This document shows, piece by piece, positions 1,704 through 28,230 of a stretch of DNA of 34,619 bases (positions are counted from its first letter, which is position 1; each line of letters opens with the position of its first letter). A program made the translations under genes and the position numbers. Origin of the DNA: Candidatus Woesearchaeota archaeon (lineage in GTDB: Archaea > Nanobdellota > Nanobdellia > Woesearchaeales > SKIA01); assembly GCA_007117065.1 (NCBI GenBank), contig SKHI01000018.1, positions 1-34,619 of the forward strand. Reading direction: 5' to 3'. A model generated the notes under the pieces. The model worked only from the letters and a program-made list of their open reading frames with translations, did no database searches and was not told the origin of the DNA.

Positions 1704-2677
1704 TACGCGCCTTTTTTTATGATATATGTCCCGTCCAGGAGTTGTACACTTGGTTTGCGCAGGATTCCGTCTGCGTGTTGTGTGCTTGTGTATGGTGCTC
1801 CTGTTTGCTTGGGGTATCCGTGCCCGTGCGCGATATGCACTCCCGGGTACTTTTCATCATGCATTACGTGCCCCAAGAATGTTTTAATCCCTGTATTTGT
1901 TCCCATCCCAAATTCTCCTATTCGTGCAGCGTTTTCATCGACTTGTATGGCTTTGCGTGCTATTCTGAGGAGTTCAGGGTCTGCGCAGCGTATCTCTTGT
2001 ATGACTCCTTCTCGAACAATCCAGTAAATAGGTGTACCTTTGAGTTGTTCAAGAAGTTCCTCTTTTTGTGGGTGGCTTGCAAGTGGCGCGTATGCTCCAT
2101 CAATTACTATTGTTCCATCAACACTCGCAGGATACGTGTATACTTCTGCTGGCAAGAGATTACGTGTTTTTGCGCGCTGTATGACTCCTGTGCTTGCTAG
2201 CCAGGAATACTTGTTCGTATCAAAGCGTATCAATGCGTGTGTGCCTGCAGGGCTGCTGAGAAGTACTTGTTTTTGCTGTTGCATTTTCTCATACACGTGT
2301 TCAGTGCGGTCAATGATTTCTCGTATATCTCCAGTAAACGCGCTTGCGAGCACTTCTTGCGTGGCGTCTAGAAGGTTTCCTACTCTTCCTCCACGCTCTT
2401 CTATATAGGTGTTTAGCTCGTCTCTAAACGCTCGTTCATCTCCGTATTGTTTTGTGATTGCATAGATGAGTACATCAATTTCTGCAAGTTCCTTTTTGAG
2501 TTCTTCAGGCAGTGTTATAAGTGGTCTTTGGTCTGCATCTAACCAAAGTATGTTTCCATCTTCTTGCTCAGCGAGTGCGTTAATGAGTTCTCGTGTTGTC
2601 TCATCTCCGAGATATGCGATGCGCTCGTCCGGTTTTTTTTGTATGATCTGGTGAATTTTTTGCGCGTATTGGTTCAT
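1691..2677 (-). CDS. M29 aminopeptidase T / NicX-like metalloenzyme
   Basis: 328 residues. The C-terminal half carries the metal-ligand blocks of the aminopeptidase T (M29) / NicX superfamily: Glu178 in LLPAEVYTYP, Glu255 in IGEFGMGTN, His281 in VHIAHG, and His301 plus Asp303 in TQHADGI. These fit the Glu, Glu, His, His, Asp ligand set known for AmpS-type M29 enzymes. The protein is shorter than classical M29 peptidases (about 410 aa) and its N-terminal half is not recognisable to me. It has no signal peptide, so it should be cytoplasmic, either an aminopeptidase or a NicX-like ring-cleaving dioxygenase. The start at 2677 fits a TATA box 26 nt upstream, apparently shared with rnhB. Fold strong, substrate unknown. 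Confidence 0.82.
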   Translation of the reverse strand: MNQYAQKIHQIIQKKPDERIAYLGDETTRELINALAEQEDGNILWLDADQRPLITLPEELKKELAEIDVLIYAITKQYGDERAFRDELNTYIEERGGRVGNLLDATQEVLASAFTGDIREIIDRTEHVYEKMQQQKQVLLSSPAGTHALIRFDTNKYSWLASTGVIQRAKTRNLLPAEVYTYPASVDGTIVIDGAYAPLASHPQKEELLEQLKGTPIYWIVREGVIQEIRCADPELLRIARKAIQVDENAARIGEFGMGTNTGIKTFLGHVMHDEKYPGVHIAHGHGYPKQTGAPYTSTQHADGILRKPSVQLLDGTYIIKKGAYQIS

Positions 2678-2690
2678 ACATGCTATAATG

Positions 2691-2700
2691 AGAACGTTCT
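2691..2700. repeat. perfect 10-bp palindrome AGAACGTTCT beside the shared TATA
   Basis: AGAACGTTCT equals its own reverse complement. It lies directly against the TATATAT element and between the two divergent start codons (2677 and 2726), so it could be an operator or a recognition element acting on both genes. A chance occurrence is possible. Confidence 0.4.
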
Positions 2701-2707
2701 TATATAT
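2701..2707. promoter_or_regulatory. symmetric TATA element shared by the M29-like gene and rnhB
   Basis: TATATAT is centred 27 nt from the minus-strand ATG (2677) and 22 nt from the plus-strand ATG (2726). No other TATA-like element exists in the 48-bp gap at usable spacing for either gene, so one near-symmetric box may direct leaderless transcription both ways. Confidence 0.55.
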
Positions 2708-2725
2708 GCGTTTCTTCTTTCTGTT

Positions 2726-3340
2726 ATGTATTGCGGGATTGATGAGGCGGGAAGAGGTCCTCTTATCGGGCCTCTTGTCATGGCTGCAGTTCTTGCATGC
2801 GATGCTGATATTCCTGCTGGTGTGCGTGATTCAAAACTGCTCTCAAAAGCTCGACGAGAGGAGTTGTACGAGCAGCTTCTTCTCCTTCCTCACGTCATTC
2901 ACATTGTCTCAGCTCAAGAAGTAGATGAGGCAGTGTTTCAGAATGATTTAAACTGGTTAGAGGCCCGTCACACAGCACAGATAATCAATAAACTTGCTCC
3001 GAAAAGAGCTGTTCTTGACTGTCCTTCACGCAACATTCCTGTGTATCAGTCCTTTGTTGCTCAGAGATGTCCAGGCGTTGAGGTGCATGCACAATTTAAA
3101 GCAGACGTTGACTTCCCTGTCGTTGCTGCTGCAAGTATTCTTGCCAAGGTTGTTCGTGACCGTGTAATTGATGATTTACAAAAACAAGCAGGTTTTGATT
3201 TTGGAAGTGGTTATTTGACTGATCCAAAGACACAGGAGTTTCTCACCCATCACTTCGATAAATATTTTATTGGTTTTCGCAAGAGTTGGAAGCCGTATAA
3301 TAAACGTGTTGCACAAGACGAGCAGAACACGTTGTTTTGA
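2726..3340 (+). CDS. rnhB: ribonuclease HII
   Basis: 204 residues, the usual size for archaeal RNase HII, which cuts the RNA strand of RNA-DNA hybrids and starts removal of misincorporated ribonucleotides. The start MYCGIDEAGRGPLIGPL holds the first catalytic pair, Asp5 and Glu6. A further acidic residue sits in AVLDCPS, and DFPVVAAASILAKVVRD is the conserved core block. The C-terminal GSGYLTDPKT segment is also family-typical. The frame is open upstream, but homology starts at ATG 2726 and the TATA element at 2701-2707 makes a leaderless start there plausible. Divergent from the M29-like gene. Confidence 0.95.
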   Translation: MYCGIDEAGRGPLIGPLVMAAVLACDADIPAGVRDSKLLSKARREELYEQLLLLPHVIHIVSAQEVDEAVFQNDLNWLEARHTAQIINKLAPKRAVLDCPSRNIPVYQSFVAQRCPGVEVHAQFKADVDFPVVAAASILAKVVRDRVIDDLQKQAGFDFGSGYLTDPKTQEFLTHHFDKYFIGFRKSWKPYNKRVAQDEQNTLF

Positions 3341-3836: not shown

Positions 3837-6800
3837 GTGACGCAAAAACAGCAACACACTAAAATTGTTCGTATGGAGATGAAAGGTTTCAAATCCTTTG
3901 CAAACAAAGTAACTATTGATTTTACAAATGATTTTAACTGTATTCTTGGACCCAACGGTTCTGGAAAGAGTAATGTATTAGATGCGCTTTGTTTTGTTCT
4001 GGGAAAAGCAGGGAGTAAAAGCTTACGTGCAGAAAAGACTGCAAATCTTATCTATAATGGTGGGAAGACAAAAAGTCCTGCCAAGCAAGGTGAGGTGCAT
4101 ATATGGTTTGATAATGCTTCGCGTATATTTCCCACAGATACTGCCGAAATTAAGATCAGTCGTATCGTAAAAAAAACGGGTACGAGTGCGTATCTTATTA
4201 ATGATGAAACAAGTACTCGCTCAGCAATTAGCGATATGCTTGCACATGCCAGAATTGATGCTGATGGATATAACATTATTTTACAAGGTGATATTGTCCG
4301 TCTTGTCGAAATGAGTCCTGTTGAGCGACGCGGTATCATCGAAGAAATTAGTGGGATTAGTATTTATGAGGAAAAAAAAGATCGTGCTTCTCGTGAACTC
4401 GAACGCGTTGAGGTACAGTTACGAGAGGCTGATATTATTCTTGCAGAACGAAAGACGCATTTAGAAGAGTTGCGTAAAGAGCGTGACCAAGCACAGAAAT
4501 TTAAGGATTTAGAGGATAAGATGCGTCGAAACAAAAAAACCTTGCTTGTTCGTAAGCAGGATGCCAAACTCCTCTCTGTTCAAGATCTTTCAAAAAAGAT
4601 TTCTGAGAGCGAAGAGCAAGTCTCTGCTATTCAGGAAAAAATATCTTCTCTTAAACAAGCTATTCTTGAGAAACGAAAAGAAATCGATGCTATTAGTCGA
4701 GAGGTAGAGGAGAAAGGAGAAAAGGAGCAAGTTGCTCTCATGAAAACTGTTGAGCAATTACGCATAGACCTCGCTCTTAAATCTCAGAGAAAAGAAACTG
4801 TGCGTCAAGAGATAGGACGCATTCAACTTAGAAAAAAGGAATTAGAGGTAAGCAGAAAAGAGGCTGATCAAAAAATTTCTGAGCTGCGAGATAAAATAAC
4901 CTCTGCGGATAAGCGTATAGCGGCGCGTCAACGTGAACTTGATGAATTAGAGAAAAAAATTGTTGCCTTTCAGAAAAAAAATGATCTTGCAAGTGCTTCT
5001 GACATTGATGCGCGCATCAAAGGAATTGAGGAACAAGCAGAAAAGTTACAGGAAGAAATGCAGTCTATGCGTGAGGAACAACAAGAACTTATGCGCAAAA
5101 AAGATCGTTTAGAGTTCCAGTTACATACGATTGATGAAAAAGTTGCAAAAGTTTTAGAAGCGCAAAAAGAGAATAAAGAACAAGTAAAATTACTCCAAAC
5201 ACAACAAAAACAACTTACTACAATAAACGCTCGTCTCTCAACCGTTCTTGACCGAGCAAGCGCTCTTGTGCCTGAGTTACAGACTGCTCAAGGCAAGCTG
5301 CACACCCATACTGAGCAATTAAACAAATTACAAGTTCGCTACGAGCGCATTCAAGAGCGCGCTGCGGGGAGCAGAGCGGTAAAGGAAGTCTTACAGCTTC
5401 GACGAGACAATCCTCGGATATTGGGAACTGTTGCACAGCTTGGGCGCGTCTCCGACCAGTTTAGTCTTGCTTTAGAGGTGGCTGCAGGTGGTCGTTTGCA
5501 AAGCGTTGTTGTAGAAGATGACGTCGCTGCGCAAGAGTGTATTGCGTTTCTTAAGGCACAGCGTTTGGGCGTAGCCACGTTTTTTCCGCTTAATAAAATT
5601 CGTTCTCGCCCCATTCCTTCTGAATTACGTTCCCTTTCCGGTCCGGGAATTCATGGCTTTGCTGTTGACCTTGTGTCTTTTGACAAAAAATATGATTCTG
5701 TATTCTCCTTTGTATTCGCAAGCACTCTTGTTGTAGAAGATATTGCTGTAGCAAGAAGGATTGGTATTGGGCGAACACGGATGGTCACTGTTCAAGGAGA
5801 CCTCATCGAAGCGTCTGGTGCGATGAGTGGCGGGTTTCGTCAGCAACAACAAACGGGGGGCGGTTTTGTTGAAGAAGGGCTTTCACAACAATTATCTACT
5901 GCTGAAAAACACGTGGCTGATTATCAGTCTCTTGTTGCGCGGCTTACTTCTGAGAAGACTGAATTACATGCGGAAATTGAGCAGCTTCGTGAACAAAGAC
6001 ATTCCCTAGAGGACTCCGTGAAAGCACTTGAGCGTGAACTACATCTTGATACAGCTGATCTAGATGCGAGTAAGGGTGATAAAGTCCGTCTTAAAGAGGA
6101 GATTGCAGCACTTGATAACGCCTTAGATGAGGCAATCATTGCTGTTCGGGAAAAAGGAAAGATGCTTGCATCCCTAAAAATGGAAAAACAGACGTTACGA
6201 GAGAAAGTGGATTCCTTACGCAGTCCACAAGCTATTGCTGAGCTAAATGCGTTTGAGCAGCAAAAACGTCTCCTGACTACCGATATTGCCCAAATAACGA
6301 CTGAAAAGAAAGGTTTTGAAGGAAATATTACCTCTATTTATCTTCCTGAACAAGAAAACATTTTACGTATTCTACAACAGCAAGATGAAGAAATAGCTGA
6401 GTTTTCTTCTGAGGAGAAAACTCTGTCTGAGGCTCTTTCTTCAATGCAAAAAGATCTTGTAGAAAAAGAGAAGAAAGAGGCTGAATTTAGAAAACAGTTT
6501 AAGAGCTTGTTTGATTTACGCCAGAAAAAAGAGGCTGAGAAGTCCTCACTAGAAGAAAAGACTATTCGTGAAGAAGATCGTATTCGTCGTCATGAGCACG
6601 AACTCTCAGCGTACAAAATTCAAATCGCAAGTGTAAAAGCTGAACTTGCTGGTATTGAAGAGGAGCTGACAGATTATTCTTCTGTTGAAGTGTATTCTTC
6701 TAAGAAGGATGAGGATATTTCTCGTGAAATTCGTGAATATGATCGTATTGTCTCTCAATTTGGTGCTGTGAACATGAAGGCTCTTGAGATTTATGACCGT

Positions 6801-9674: not shown

Positions 9675-9696
9675 GTACGGACAGTGCATATCCCAG

Positions 9697-9704
9697 TATA
9701 AAAA
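9697..9704 (-). promoter_or_regulatory. TATA-like box for the PIG-L/GT4 operon
   Basis: TTTTTATA on the minus strand is centred 26-27 nt upstream of the ATG at 9674, favouring that start over 9689. Confidence 0.45.
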
Positions 9705-9761
9705 TGAATGTGCTTATTTTGAGGTTAGCTATGTGTTGTTCCGATGATTTTTTCTTTTTGG

Positions 9762-10427
9762 TTATTGGTTGGTTTGAGAATATTTGTTTTCTGTGAGAAA
9801 TTGAATCATCTTGTTCTCTGCTGTAGTGAGTGCTTGGTGAAATGTTTGTGGTTGTATGCCTGCTTGTTCTGCGAGTTGTTTTATGGTCGCTTTTCTTGGT
9901 GTTGAGTAATACCCTTGTTGTACGGCGAGTTGTATTGCTTCTTTTTGTTTTGGTGCGAGTTTTGGTGCGAGTTTTGGGAGGAATATTTCTGCAACATCGA
10001 GTTTTTTTATGTATGTTATGGTGTTTTCGAAGACGCTTATGTTTATGATGTTCATGAGTTCTTCTTTGTCCCACGAGGCTATTTTCCAGTCTTCGTACCC
10101 ATCACTTCTTTGTATTATGGGTTCTACGTATATTATTTTGTTATTGAAGACGTGTTTGTATTCTTCTTGTTTTATTACCTTGTTTTTTGTCAGGATGTTA
10201 TTTCCTTGTATGATGAGTTCTTGTGTTTCTGTATATGCTTTCATTTCTTTGATGAATTGTTTGATGTTTTCTTGTGTTCCTTGTAATGCGTGCAGTTCTG
10301 TGTAGATGAAGTGTTTTTCTTCCTCCCAGTAGTTGAGCACATATACGAGGTCTGTTACGTGGTATTTGACGCACAGCGGTCTTATTAAGCAATTTTTATG
10401 CCAGTTTTTGAATTTTGCAACCCACAT
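9762..10427 (-). CDS. HTH_10 (bacterioopsin activator-type) transcriptional regulator
   Basis: 221 residues. The C-terminal ~55 residues form an HTH_10 domain: KQKEAIQLAVQQGYYSTPRK followed by ATIKQLAEQAGIQPQTFHQA and the closing AENKMI helix. This matches the Bat/COG3413 family common in archaea. The N-terminal ~140 residues are a divergent sensory or effector region with no motif I can name. A short tandem duplication, KLAPKLAPK, precedes the HTH and comes from a 12-bp DNA repeat near 9950-9978. It has its own TATA-like box, is not in the PIG-L/GT4 operon, and is divergent from the SET-SGNH gene, which it might control. Confidence 0.85.
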   Translation of the reverse strand: MWVAKFKNWHKNCLIRPLCVKYHVTDLVYVLNYWEEEKHFIYTELHALQGTQENIKQFIKEMKAYTETQELIIQGNNILTKNKVIKQEEYKHVFNNKIIYVEPIIQRSDGYEDWKIASWDKEELMNIINISVFENTITYIKKLDVAEIFLPKLAPKLAPKQKEAIQLAVQQGYYSTPRKATIKQLAEQAGIQPQTFHQALTTAENKMIQFLTENKYSQTNQ

Positions 10428-10446
10428 AGTACCATTATTTGTTTGT

Positions 10447-10457
10447 ATTTTTATAAA
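10447..10457 (-). promoter_or_regulatory. TATA-like box for the HTH_10 regulator
   Basis: TTTATAAAAAT on the minus strand is centred about 25 nt upstream of the ATG at 10427, as expected for a leaderless archaeal gene. Confidence 0.5.
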
Positions 10458-10547
10458 TTTTTTGTATATGTGCTGATATATCTGGTTAAAAAATTAAATA
10501 TTGGAAGTTACTTTACAGTACTAAATTAATCATGGGGGTTTTTGAAA

Positions 10548-11468
10548 ATGAGCAATCTTATGAAGAAGAAAAGTAGTATAAATGGAATTGGGGTCTTCAC
10601 CGATCGATTTATTCAAAAGGACTCTGTTTTTTATGAAGTTCCGATGGGTATAGTTCATACTGCTCCCAGGCCAAAATGGGCTCATATTGGAGAAAATAGG
10701 TGGGTTTGTGATGAAAAAGTCTTAAATTATATCAACCATTCCTGTAGTTCTAATACTGTACTAGATATTTCAGGCATACCAAAATTGATTGCCAAAAGAA
10801 ATATCTATCCTGGCGAAGAGATTACTGTCAATTATAATGAGACTGAAGCTCACCAATGTAAGATAAATTGTACTTGTGCTTCTCTAAATTGTAATGGTTT
10901 TTTCTTTATTCAACATGCCTCATCGATGTTGTTTTTAGGAGACTCATATACAGAGGGTACAGGAGTACGGTATGACAAAACGTATCCTTATCTGCTCAGT
11001 AAAAAACTGGGAACTGTATCAATGGATGTTCTTGCTAAACATGGTTGGAGTTCAACTGATTTAATAAATAATTTACGTGAAATCGAACATAAAAACTATG
11101 ATTATACATATTTACTTATAGGAGTTAATGATTTTTGCGACAGCATACCAAATCAAGATATTCTTAAAAATATGGGTTTACTCTATGAATCAATAAAACG
11201 TCTTAGCAAACAAATAGTTATCTTGACGATACCCGATTTCACACGGGCGCCAAATGCTATAAAATATGGCGATCTTGAACTCAATCAAACTAATCTTACT
11301 GATTTAAACGTACGCATAACCTCTACATTCTCTCAGAAATGTGCTATAATTGATATTTTCAGTGTAACAAAAACACTAACACAGAATGATTTTTACACCA
11401 AAGACGGGATTCATCCTTCTGAAAAACAATACGAATTATGGGTTGATAGAATACTTGAGGAGGTGTAA
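10548..11468 (+). CDS. SET-domain / SGNH hydrolase fusion protein
   Basis: 306 residues in two clear parts. Residues ~8-120 are a compact SET domain: GIGVFTDR at the start, NHSC (63-66) of the SAM/pseudoknot region, GEEITVNYN with the catalytic-type Tyr96, and a post-SET-like Cys cluster (Cys104, 108, 110, 115). Residues ~126-306 are an SGNH/GDSL hydrolase: FLGDSYTEG with nucleophile Ser133, GVND at 192-195, and Asp286-x-x-His289 in DGIHPS. So a protein-lysine methyltransferase fold is joined to an esterase/lipase fold with all main catalytic residues present in both. There is no signal peptide. ATG 10548 follows GGGGGT at 10534-10539. The racemase-family gene follows at once. The domains are firm; substrate and joint role are unknown. 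Confidence 0.85.
   Translation: MSNLMKKKSSINGIGVFTDRFIQKDSVFYEVPMGIVHTAPRPKWAHIGENRWVCDEKVLNYINHSCSSNTVLDISGIPKLIAKRNIYPGEEITVNYNETEAHQCKINCTCASLNCNGFFFIQHASSMLFLGDSYTEGTGVRYDKTYPYLLSKKLGTVSMDVLAKHGWSSTDLINNLREIEHKNYDYTYLLIGVNDFCDSIPNQDILKNMGLLYESIKRLSKQIVILTIPDFTRAPNAIKYGDLELNQTNLTDLNVRITSTFSQKCAIIDIFSVTKTLTQNDFYTKDGIHPSEKQYELWVDRILEEV
11457..11465 (+). promoter_or_regulatory. strong Shine-Dalgarno site before the racemase gene
   Basis: GAGGAGGTG lies inside the last three codons of the SET-SGNH gene, 4 nt before ATG 11470. It fixes the racemase start and implies coupled translation from one mRNA. Confidence 0.75.
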
Positions 11469-11469
11469 T

Positions 11470-12126
11470 ATGAGGTCAAAAATTGGAATACTAGGAGGAA
11501 TAGGTCCAGAATCTTCTGCTCGTTTTTACGAGCAATTAATACAACTTGTTCAATCTAAAGGTATTAAATCGAATACGCAATATCCACATACTATTTTGGA
11601 GAGCATTCCTGCTCCAGAACTTCTTTTAAAAAATCCTGATTTGTCTATGTACAAAGCGGCACTAGGTAATCTTGAACGAGCAGGCGCAGATTTTATTGTA
11701 ATAGTTTGTAATACTGCATATGTATTTATTGACCAATTTGAAAGAGAAGTACATATTCCAATTATTAATTTGAATAAAGAAGTTAGAAACGCTCTGAATA
11801 AAATCAACCGAAAAAAAATAACTGTTTTTGGCTCTCAAAAAACTATTGATAGATTGTTTCATTTTAATAATATAGTAATTGAGCCAATAGGTGAAGATGA
11901 ATCGCTCATTATTGACAAAATAATTCTTCAGTATAATTCTGGAAAAAATAAAAGAGAATTAGAAGAGCGTCTTGTTGGTATAATACGCGATTATCCTCAA
12001 AAAAATGTATTAATTGCATGTACAGAACTTTCCACAATAGTAAAAAACGCAGGTCTAAAATATCTTGATACATTTGATATTTTACTAAATGCGACTTTTC
12101 AAAAATGGAACTCTCTAACTCTCTAG
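11470..12126 (+). CDS. aspartate/glutamate racemase-family protein
   Basis: 218 residues. The start MRSKIGILGGIGPESSARFY is typical of the PLP-independent Asp/Glu racemase family. Both catalytic-type cysteines are present: Cys80 in IVCNTAY and Cys184 in IACTELS. In the usual motif CNTAH the last residue is His; here it is Tyr. Family members interconvert L- and D-aspartate or glutamate, or act on broader amino acids (RacX, YgeA). It starts one base after the TAA of the SET-SGNH gene behind a strong Shine-Dalgarno site, so the two form an operon. The AT-rich codon use is shared with that partner and unlike the flanking genes. Which amino acid it acts on is open. Confidence 0.88.
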   Translation: MRSKIGILGGIGPESSARFYEQLIQLVQSKGIKSNTQYPHTILESIPAPELLLKNPDLSMYKAALGNLERAGADFIVIVCNTAYVFIDQFEREVHIPIINLNKEVRNALNKINRKKITVFGSQKTIDRLFHFNNIVIEPIGEDESLIIDKIILQYNSGKNKRELEERLVGIIRDYPQKNVLIACTELSTIVKNAGLKYLDTFDILLNATFQKWNSLTL

Positions 12127-12230
12127 ATCAGTTTTCCTGATGTGTTACGATTACTCAGAAGACAAGATATGTCAAAACGAGACTCGAGGAGCTGTGCTAT
12201 GCTCTTCACATTCGGTTATTTAACAGCAGG

Positions 12231-12614
12231 TCAAAGAGAAATGCCTCTGCTCTTCATGTGTCCAAATTGTATAACTGGTGCTTTTCCTTCATCTTCTCTT
12301 CTGTGAGCAACCCAAGCATAAAAGCGACAGAATCTATGCCAATAATCAGCTCTAGTTTCTTCACTCAAAGAACTGTTGTTTAATATGTTCATTAGTTCCA
12401 AAACAGTATTTTCATCAAGGGAAAGAATTGTTTTTCCTATACGTTTAATCTTTATTAAGAATATTTTACAAGCGTAATAATATTTTTCTGTACTTCCTTT
12501 AGATGGTTTTTCAACAGTAGAATAATACTTTATGAATTGAAGAATCAATTGTATACCTTCTTCATTTATGCTATGTCTTATCTTTTCAAATCGTTTTTCT
12601 ATTTCTGTGAGCAT
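12231..12614 (-). CDS. N-terminal fragment of a tyrosine recombinase (integrase)
   Basis: 127 residues resembling the SAM-like core-binding domain of Xer/phage-type tyrosine recombinases. It has an early Thr/Tyr-rich helix (STEKYYYACKIFLIKI) and then SLSEETRADYWHRFCRFYAW, the usual last helices before the catalytic domain. The catalytic domain with its Arg/His/Arg/Tyr set is absent: the frame ends at 12231 and the 104 bp beyond it are too short to hold one. The gene starts 63 bp past the 3' end of tRNA-Gly, the usual position of an integrase in an element inserted in a tRNA gene. A CTTTAAATG element about 27 nt upstream may be its promoter. Either a decayed integrase or an N-domain-only protein. 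Confidence 0.6.
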   Translation of the reverse strand: MLTEIEKRFEKIRHSINEEGIQLILQFIKYYSTVEKPSKGSTEKYYYACKIFLIKIKRIGKTILSLDENTVLELMNILNNSSLSEETRADYWHRFCRFYAWVAHRREDEGKAPVIQFGHMKSRGISL

Positions 12615-12677
12615 AGGTATACTGAATCCTTATTCATTTAAAGAAGCTGTAATACAGTAAACCATACTAAAAAGGGC

Positions 12678-12748
12678 TGCACTCGGCGGGAATCGAACCC
12701 GCAGCTCCGGCTTGGAAGGCCAGGGTGTTACCATTACACCACGAGTGC
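12678..12748 (-). tRNA. tRNA-Gly(TCC)
   Basis: A 71-nt cloverleaf on the minus strand. The acceptor arms GCACTCG and CGAGTGC pair fully, the anticodon loop is CTTCCAA (anticodon TCC), and the T arm GCGGGTTCGATTCCCGC is canonical. The discriminator is A, CCA is not encoded, and there is no intron. A TTTATAA element at 12774-12780 lies about 29 nt upstream. The integrase fragment follows its 3' end. Confidence 0.95.
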
Positions 12749-27201: not shown

Positions 27202-27279
27202 ATTTAGTGGTGTAAATATTTGTTATATTAAAAACTTATGCTAAATAGTTTTAAGTATATTTAGTACTATGTTAAAGTG

Positions 27280-28230
27280 ATGGCAATGAACGATTTATTT
27301 GATAAAACAACTCTTGCAATCCTTAATGGTGCGGTATTTCCCACTCTTCTGCGTGAAAACAAAGATGGTACGCGAACATGGTCGATAGCATCATCGCAGC
27401 GATGGTATCGCACAAATGGATACTTAGATTTAATCCAAACACCAAGTGTATATGCAAAATTAATGTTAGAACCAGAAAATAAGTTACTTACAGGATTAAA
27501 TAATATATTAAAAACTACTTCCGCCCCTACATCAGTAGTGGATATTGGTCCAGGAGATGGAAAAAAGATTTCTCTGTTGTACGATGATATTAATACACAT
27601 ACATACATTCCAATTGATGTGGCTGCCAAACAATTAGCAATCAGTACAAAAAAAATGAAACAAAAATTTACGCACATACATCCTATACATGCAGAATTTA
27701 AAGAAGGATTCGCACAAGTAACTGATGTACGTCCAGAAGGCCAGCGTTTACTTTGGTATTTGGGTTCTACTTTTTCAAACAGAGAGGCGTTTGAATACGA
27801 TCTTGTAAACACAATACATGAACATATGGGTGAGGGTGATTGGCTGTATCTTTCTACACAGCAAATGAATCCAAATACTTGTGAATTAATAACTGCACAG
27901 TATGCTTTACCATGGTGTATTGCTGTGTCTAATGAATTGGCTGCAGAACAAGAAATACGAACAACTCCCTTTGCGCCTCGATACGACCCTATACGCGAAT
28001 CAATTGATGTAGTTGCTACAATAACTGCTGTGCCTAAAGAATACTCGCATGCTATGTTTCCAGGTGATGAAATAATGCCATTTGTATCTGCAAAACCAAG
28101 GAATCTGCGCGAATACGTTACTCGAAACTATCCTCTCCTTACAAATGCAATTGAGTTAAGCGTTTCATATGCACAAAGAATGGCTGATGGTGTGGATGCT
28201 GGTTTTGAAGCAGTGGTGCTTAAGAAGTAG
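27280..28230 (+). CDS. EgtD-like histidine-type N-methyltransferase family protein
   Basis: 316 residues from ATG 27280; GTG 27277 and ATG 27286 are close alternatives. The SAM-binding motif VVDIGPGDG lies at about 86-94 and is followed by YIPIDVAAKQL. LLWYLGSTFSNRE near 167-180 and GDWLYLSTQ match the EgtD / Methyltransf_33 family. EgtD trimethylates histidine in ergothioneine synthesis, while related proteins methylate other targets such as diphthamide intermediates. No EgtB- or EgtE-like partner is present in the window, so an ergothioneine role is not shown. A TATA-like AAGTATATTT stands about 25 nt upstream. Confidence 0.82.
   Translation: MAMNDLFDKTTLAILNGAVFPTLLRENKDGTRTWSIASSQRWYRTNGYLDLIQTPSVYAKLMLEPENKLLTGLNNILKTTSAPTSVVDIGPGDGKKISLLYDDINTHTYIPIDVAAKQLAISTKKMKQKFTHIHPIHAEFKEGFAQVTDVRPEGQRLLWYLGSTFSNREAFEYDLVNTIHEHMGEGDWLYLSTQQMNPNTCELITAQYALPWCIAVSNELAAEQEIRTTPFAPRYDPIRESIDVVATITAVPKEYSHAMFPGDEIMPFVSAKPRNLREYVTRNYPLLTNAIELSVSYAQRMADGVDAGFEAVVLKK

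Follow-up and report, generated by a model that had tools for sequence, protein, structure and literature searches.

The SET-SGNH fusion gene was confirmed as real, and it heads an operon that also encodes an amino-acid racemase. The conserved and ancestral unit is a mobile SET-racemase operon, rather than the SET-SGNH fusion; the fusion was seen in one genome and does not by itself form a conserved system. The window (the whole stretch of DNA that was analysed, 34,619 nucleotides) belongs to a DPANN (Woesearchaeales-like) archaeon, in which the operon was horizontally acquired beside a tRNA-Gly gene (Table 1). The SET enzyme and the racemase might share one small amino-acid-type substrate, with the SGNH domain as an add-on acyl or ester hydrolase. 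The probability of this reading is put at roughly 0.35.

Table 1. Fusion gene, operon, and borders of the acquired block in the window.
Feature	Position	Strand	Basis and remarks
Block between the PIG-L gene and tRNA-Gly	9690..12677		2988 bp here, ~190 bp in the sister species G002
HTH_10-type regulator, divergent from the fusion operon	9762..10427	-	PF04967, E 1.9e-16
Whole SET-SGNH fusion gene	10548..11468	+	306 aa plus stop; translation
SET and post-SET domain, residues 1-120	10548..10907	+	Pfam, subfamily alignment, AlphaFold
SGNH (GDSL-type) hydrolase domain, ~residues 127-302	10926..11453	+	Pfam, catalytic residues
GAGGAGG, Shine-Dalgarno-like site for the racemase	11457..11463	+	Lies inside the final fusion-gene codons
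PLP-independent amino-acid racemase, Asp/Glu racemase superfamily	11470..12126	+	218 aa; PF01177, E 6.6e-17
Archaeal tyrosine recombinase (integrase), N-terminal remnant	12231..12614	-	PF13495, E 0.0095, weak, below cut-off
tRNA-Gly (TCC), 3' end bordering the acquired block	12678..12748	-	ARAGORN

Translation of the fusion gene gave one unbroken ORF with no internal stop. Pfam analysis identified a SET domain (PF00856, residues 13-97, E 1.6e-8, 35.4 bits against a cut-off of 22.4) and an SGNH domain (PF13472, Lipase_GDSL_2, residues 129-297, E 3.8e-17, 63.8 bits against a cut-off of 32.9). The SET motifs are all present, including the SAM-binding G13xG15, N63-H64-S65-C66, and the catalytic Y96; alignment of 13 subfamily members showed that they are invariant or nearly so. 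The post-SET zinc cysteines CxCx4C (C108, C110, and C115) are invariant in the same 13 members. The SGNH catalytic residues S133, G166, N194, D286, and H289 are intact in all four blocks, and an alignment with six other SGNH proteins showed that G131-D132-S133, G166, G192xN194, and D286xxH289 are invariant. The preliminary description had reported a SET-SGNH fusion in an archaeal gene with both active sites kept, and these analyses bear it out. It had also raised two doubts: an assembly join or a missed stop at residues 118-128, and a fusion confined to one genome with no conserved catalytic residues. The ORF is continuous, and the sequence shows a clean domain join around residues 118-128 (CNGFFFIQHASSMLFLGDSYTEG). 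The fusion was indeed seen in only one of the genomes searched, but its catalytic residues are intact.

The AlphaFold model gave a confident SET fold, with a pLDDT of ~82-98 over residues 1-120. The alignment used for this model contained SET rows only and no SGNH relatives; MAFFT had overlaid the SGNH-only rows on the SET-only rows. The SGNH half is not resolved in this model built on SET relatives, and no domain interface is readable.

The racemase gene begins one nucleotide past the fusion stop codon. The GAGG of its putative ribosome site is conserved at the corresponding place in the loci L057-L060. The two catalytic cysteines of the racemase are both present, Cys80 in a CNT motif and Cys184 in a CTE motif. 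Its structural model has a pLDDT of 92, and the best fold matches are aspartate racemases (TM ~0.75-0.85). The enzyme shares the two catalytic cysteines and the fold with the Asp/Glu racemase superfamily, such as PhAspR (1jfl), CuyB, RacX, and YgeA. However, it falls under the NCBIfam cut-offs for the named racemases: 83.8 against 190 for the cysteate racemase CuyB, 74.1 against 93.1 for asp_race, and 26.3 against 146.65 for glut_race. It also has PAPE at the position where the profile aligns the PDRT motif of PhAspR. The arginine of the PDRT motif in aspartate racemase presumably binds the side-chain carboxylate. RacX, of the same cofactor-independent racemase superfamily, is listed as an Arg/Lys/Orn racemase (PMC8142540).

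A pattern scan over 84,980 genomes identified 12 close relatives that are 42-59% identical to the window SET domain; beyond these, identity dropped abruptly to 34%. A profile of this subfamily scored its members at 1e-42 or better, and all other SET domains at 1e-23 or worse. The subfamily SET domains are about 124 aa in length. Judged by its sequence, the window SET belongs to a distinct SET subfamily. The hosts of the 12 relatives include several DPANN lineages, Berkelbacteria, Parcubacteria, Bacteroidota, and one unplaced bacterium. A racemase gene lies immediately downstream of the SET gene in seven of them (L057-L060, L062, L064, and L068), or 7/11 once L065 is excluded, where the contig ends after the SET gene. 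The racemase is absent beside SET in L061, L063, L066, and L067. Most of the paired racemases begin within a few nucleotides of the SET stop, and the pairs occur in archaea and in one bacterium (Berkelbacteria). No SGNH domain was found in the 12 SET-relative loci. Two of the loci without the pair carry a methyltransferase of another kind. In the parcubacterial L067 (4305-5396), a class I SAM methyltransferase is fused N-terminal to a SET of the same subfamily, which places two methyltransferase folds on one chain. In the archaeal L063, a class I methyltransferase gene lies shortly upstream of a same-subfamily SET gene (3852-4607 and 4935-5387), with no racemase downstream.

A phylogenetic tree of the racemases was reconstructed with seven SET-linked copies, i.e., the window copy and six others. 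The broken copy of L059 was omitted; its ORF (2599-3033) stops matching after about 104-113 residues and runs into unrelated sequence, by a frameshift or an assembly join. The SET-linked racemases form one clade (support 99/96), nested in the wider family. The clade includes the Berkelbacteria copy, so the pair has a single origin and moves between domains of life. The SET-linked racemases deviate from the wider family at a handful of sites close to the active-site motifs, such as Ala83 after CNT.

Searches for other copies of the fusion covered several collections. A query with the fusion protein gave no two-domain match in about 900 genomes, which comprised the family, order, and phylum, a sample of Patescibacteria, and the order of the L057 genome. 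Of the 144 SET ORFs in the loci retrieved, SGNH was found on the window protein only, which is present in several overlapping loci. Close-relative scans with the whole fusion gave no match in the genome and viral collections, and the viral collections also held no match to the SGNH part or to the racemase. In plasmids and phages no fusion was found, and the only matches were to SGNH, at about 24% identity. The co-occurrence of SET and SGNH in L208 was rejected, as these are separate genes on opposite strands and of other subfamilies. The preliminary description knew of no described system with this fusion. That statement still holds after a literature search of open-licence papers, which found neither a SET-SGNH fusion system nor an archaeal SET-racemase system.

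The fusion itself was correctly seen in the preliminary description, but its operon with the racemase, inside an acquired island, went unseen. In the sister species G002 (L051), about 190 bp separate the start of the PIG-L gene from the same tRNA-Gly, and the HTH_10 regulator is missing at the corresponding site. Neither same-genus genome matches the fusion or the racemase. The GC content is 0.30-0.36 over the HTH gene, SET, SGNH, the racemase, and the integrase remnant, and about 0.40 in the flanks. The block is therefore acquired: the site is empty in the sister species, its GC is lower, and the same-genus genomes have no matches. The integrase remnant is 27% identical to the N-terminal part of a complete recombinase-like ORF of 449 aa in L215. 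An integrase beside a tRNA gene, with an empty site in a relative, is the pattern of a tRNA-site element, and both features were found here. No second copy of the 3' end of the tRNA was found as a direct repeat at the far border within the window. The integrated element, if one existed, looks now decayed.

Comparison with the unfused loci suggests how the fusion might have formed. In L057, the SET gene ends with TATTTTTTGAGGATAGAATAA, followed by T and then the racemase ATG. In the window, the SET continues past GGTTTTTTC into SGNH, and the sequence preceding the racemase is TTGAGGAGGTGTAATATG. The alignment places the insertion point in frame, between FFF and the GAGG...TAATATG of the racemase. 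The simplest reading is that SGNH was inserted in frame just before the last SET codons in this lineage only, and that the insertion would have left the ribosome site and the start of the racemase intact. The junction also bears on whether two unrelated genes were joined by assembly. The genome is a 51-contig draft and the fusion was seen once, as such an error might produce. However, the ORF is continuous, and the GC is even over the whole block; the SGNH GC is the same as that of its neighbours, so there is no sign of an assembly chimera. The in-frame junction also retains the racemase start signals as in L057-L060, and an artefact is highly improbable.

The two genes of the operon have diverged differently. 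At positions where L058 and L060 agree, the SET has changed at 29/84 in the window vs 15/87 in L057, about twofold; the racemase, in the same comparison, has changed equally (27/137 vs 25/137). The window SET retains every residue found in 90% or more of the subfamily, so the faster change looks like altered fit, not decay. The role of the SET may have shifted after the fusion. The nearest relatives found for the SGNH domain are SGNH proteins of ~29-35% identity from related archaea (L004-L006) and Patescibacteria, and the domain has no firm placement in a tree. At about 31% identity to the nearest relative found, the SGNH seems unlikely to have arrived very recently. All the SGNH catalytic residues are shared with the TesA-like/GDSL-type acylhydrolases (PF13472). 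The nearest SGNH relatives differ by having no SET fusion; L004-L006 bear N-terminal leader sequences instead.

These data also bear on an incidental fusion, in which SGNH simply landed in frame behind SET. Each half would then work by itself, with SGNH acting as a TesA-like acyl hydrolase of general function, or else the fusion would be transient. The single genome and the fast divergence of the SET half are consistent with this, as are the closest SET-racemase loci, which lack SGNH; a whole-protein search also found no SGNH in the L057, L058, L060, and G272 genomes. On the other side, the ORF and every SGNH catalytic residue are intact, the SET keeps all the residues common to at least 90% of the subfamily, and the distance of SGNH from its nearest found relative means that it is not obviously very recent. 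An incidental fusion is plausible, though less likely than not.

The SET domain was compared with known SET enzymes. The KMT2/MLL SET domains are the nearest solved relatives, and the best match of the subfamily (E 4.9e-15); NHSC, the tyrosine, and the post-SET cysteines are common to both. However, the archaeal domain is about 20 residues shorter in the profile alignment, its subfamily motif is VLN(Y/W)(I/V)NHSC vs aR(F/Y)INHSC in KMT2, and its gene partner is a racemase. The PDB matches include BurB as well, in sequence (6.4e-10) and in fold; KMT2/MLL outscores it in both. BurB is a SET-domain methionine S-methyltransferase that methylates free methionine (PDB 9l4t/9l4v, PMC12542666). It resembles the window SET in being compact, prokaryotic, and encoded in a neighbourhood of metabolic genes. 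It differs in that it is not the closest SET by score, and its description mentions neither an SGNH domain nor a racemase partner (PMC12542666). No DMSP-pathway neighbours of the BurB type (decarboxylase, aminotransferase, or dehydrogenase) were found in the window, where the neighbours are the racemase, the HTH_10 regulator, the integrase remnant, and PIG-L. Compactness was dropped as a decisive sign of a small substrate, as other prokaryotic SET domains are nearly as short. Go1-SET (Methanosarcina mazei) is also an archaeal SET domain protein, and was set beside the window SET by description; it differs in that its in vitro methylation target is the chromatin protein MC1-alpha (PMC3980110).

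The SET might instead be a protein-lysine methyltransferase, whose target could be the racemase or a DNA-binding protein, with SGNH carried along or targeted by SET. The resemblance to KMT2/MLL in sequence and fold points this way, as do the in vitro activity of the archaeal Go1-SET and the complete set of post-SET zinc cysteines. The several subfamily members without an adjacent racemase, among them L067 with its fused class I methyltransferase, count against a shared small substrate of SET and racemase. However, a dedicated and horizontally moving racemase partnership is unexpected for a chromatin enzyme, and the racemase is the sole conserved protein partner seen beside the SET gene. Protein methylation is a serious alternative, slightly less probable than a shared small substrate. 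The racemase as the conserved partner points to amino-acid chemistry, not to protein marks. SET and racemase probably share a substrate, because the subfamily is mostly paired with a racemase and small-genome organisms of very different kinds carry the pair.

In the favoured small-molecule pathway, the racemase would act on a non-acidic amino acid and invert its alpha-carbon, and the SET would move a methyl group from SAM to the side chain of that amino acid, as BurB does with free methionine. The tethered SGNH might act on a precursor or a product of the same pathway and remove an acyl or ester group from it; the suggested link of SGNH to the pathway comes from a single genome. SET and SGNH would act at separate active sites on a single chain. 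The preliminary description offered a different model, in which one chain methylates and de-esterifies the same or linked targets, or the SET recruits SGNH to a partner. The two active sites kept on one chain agree with it. However, the fusion is not conserved, the conserved partner of the SET subfamily is the racemase, and a shared macromolecular target is unsupported. This model is improbable, and the pairing of a methyl mark with ester removal was not upheld as a conserved device.

More broadly, and just as tentatively as the shared substrate, the SET subfamily and its dedicated racemase might constitute a self-contained amino-acid methylation and epimerisation pathway of DPANN and Patescibacteria, which spreads between both, and to which ester hydrolysis was fused in one archaeon. 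The open-licence papers searched hint that no such SET-racemase pathway has been described. To our knowledge, SET domains are almost always discussed as protein-lysine methyltransferases, with BurB as one solved exception. If the pathway is real, SET domains would be a recurrent tool of small-molecule metabolism, beyond protein marking. The mobile and conserved SET-racemase pair in minimal-genome archaea and bacteria would be a testable second case after BurB, and the SET-SGNH fusion usefully draws attention to the pathway.

Some further observations were made on related genes. The wider racemase family (L023-L040, in other DPANN genomes) has an NSIPAPEL motif, and its genes often lie beside a class I Trp/Tyr-type tRNA synthetase gene and/or a gene of an unnamed family of about 285 aa. 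The synthetase neighbour was confirmed by PF00579 in L028 and L033. The ~285-aa family gave no Pfam or PDB match, and its assignment as a cyclodipeptide synthase, which lacked support from either source, was dropped. Elsewhere in the window, at 27277-28230 on the forward strand, a gene matches the histidine-specific methyltransferase family (Methyltransf_33, EgtD-like; E 3.7e-17).
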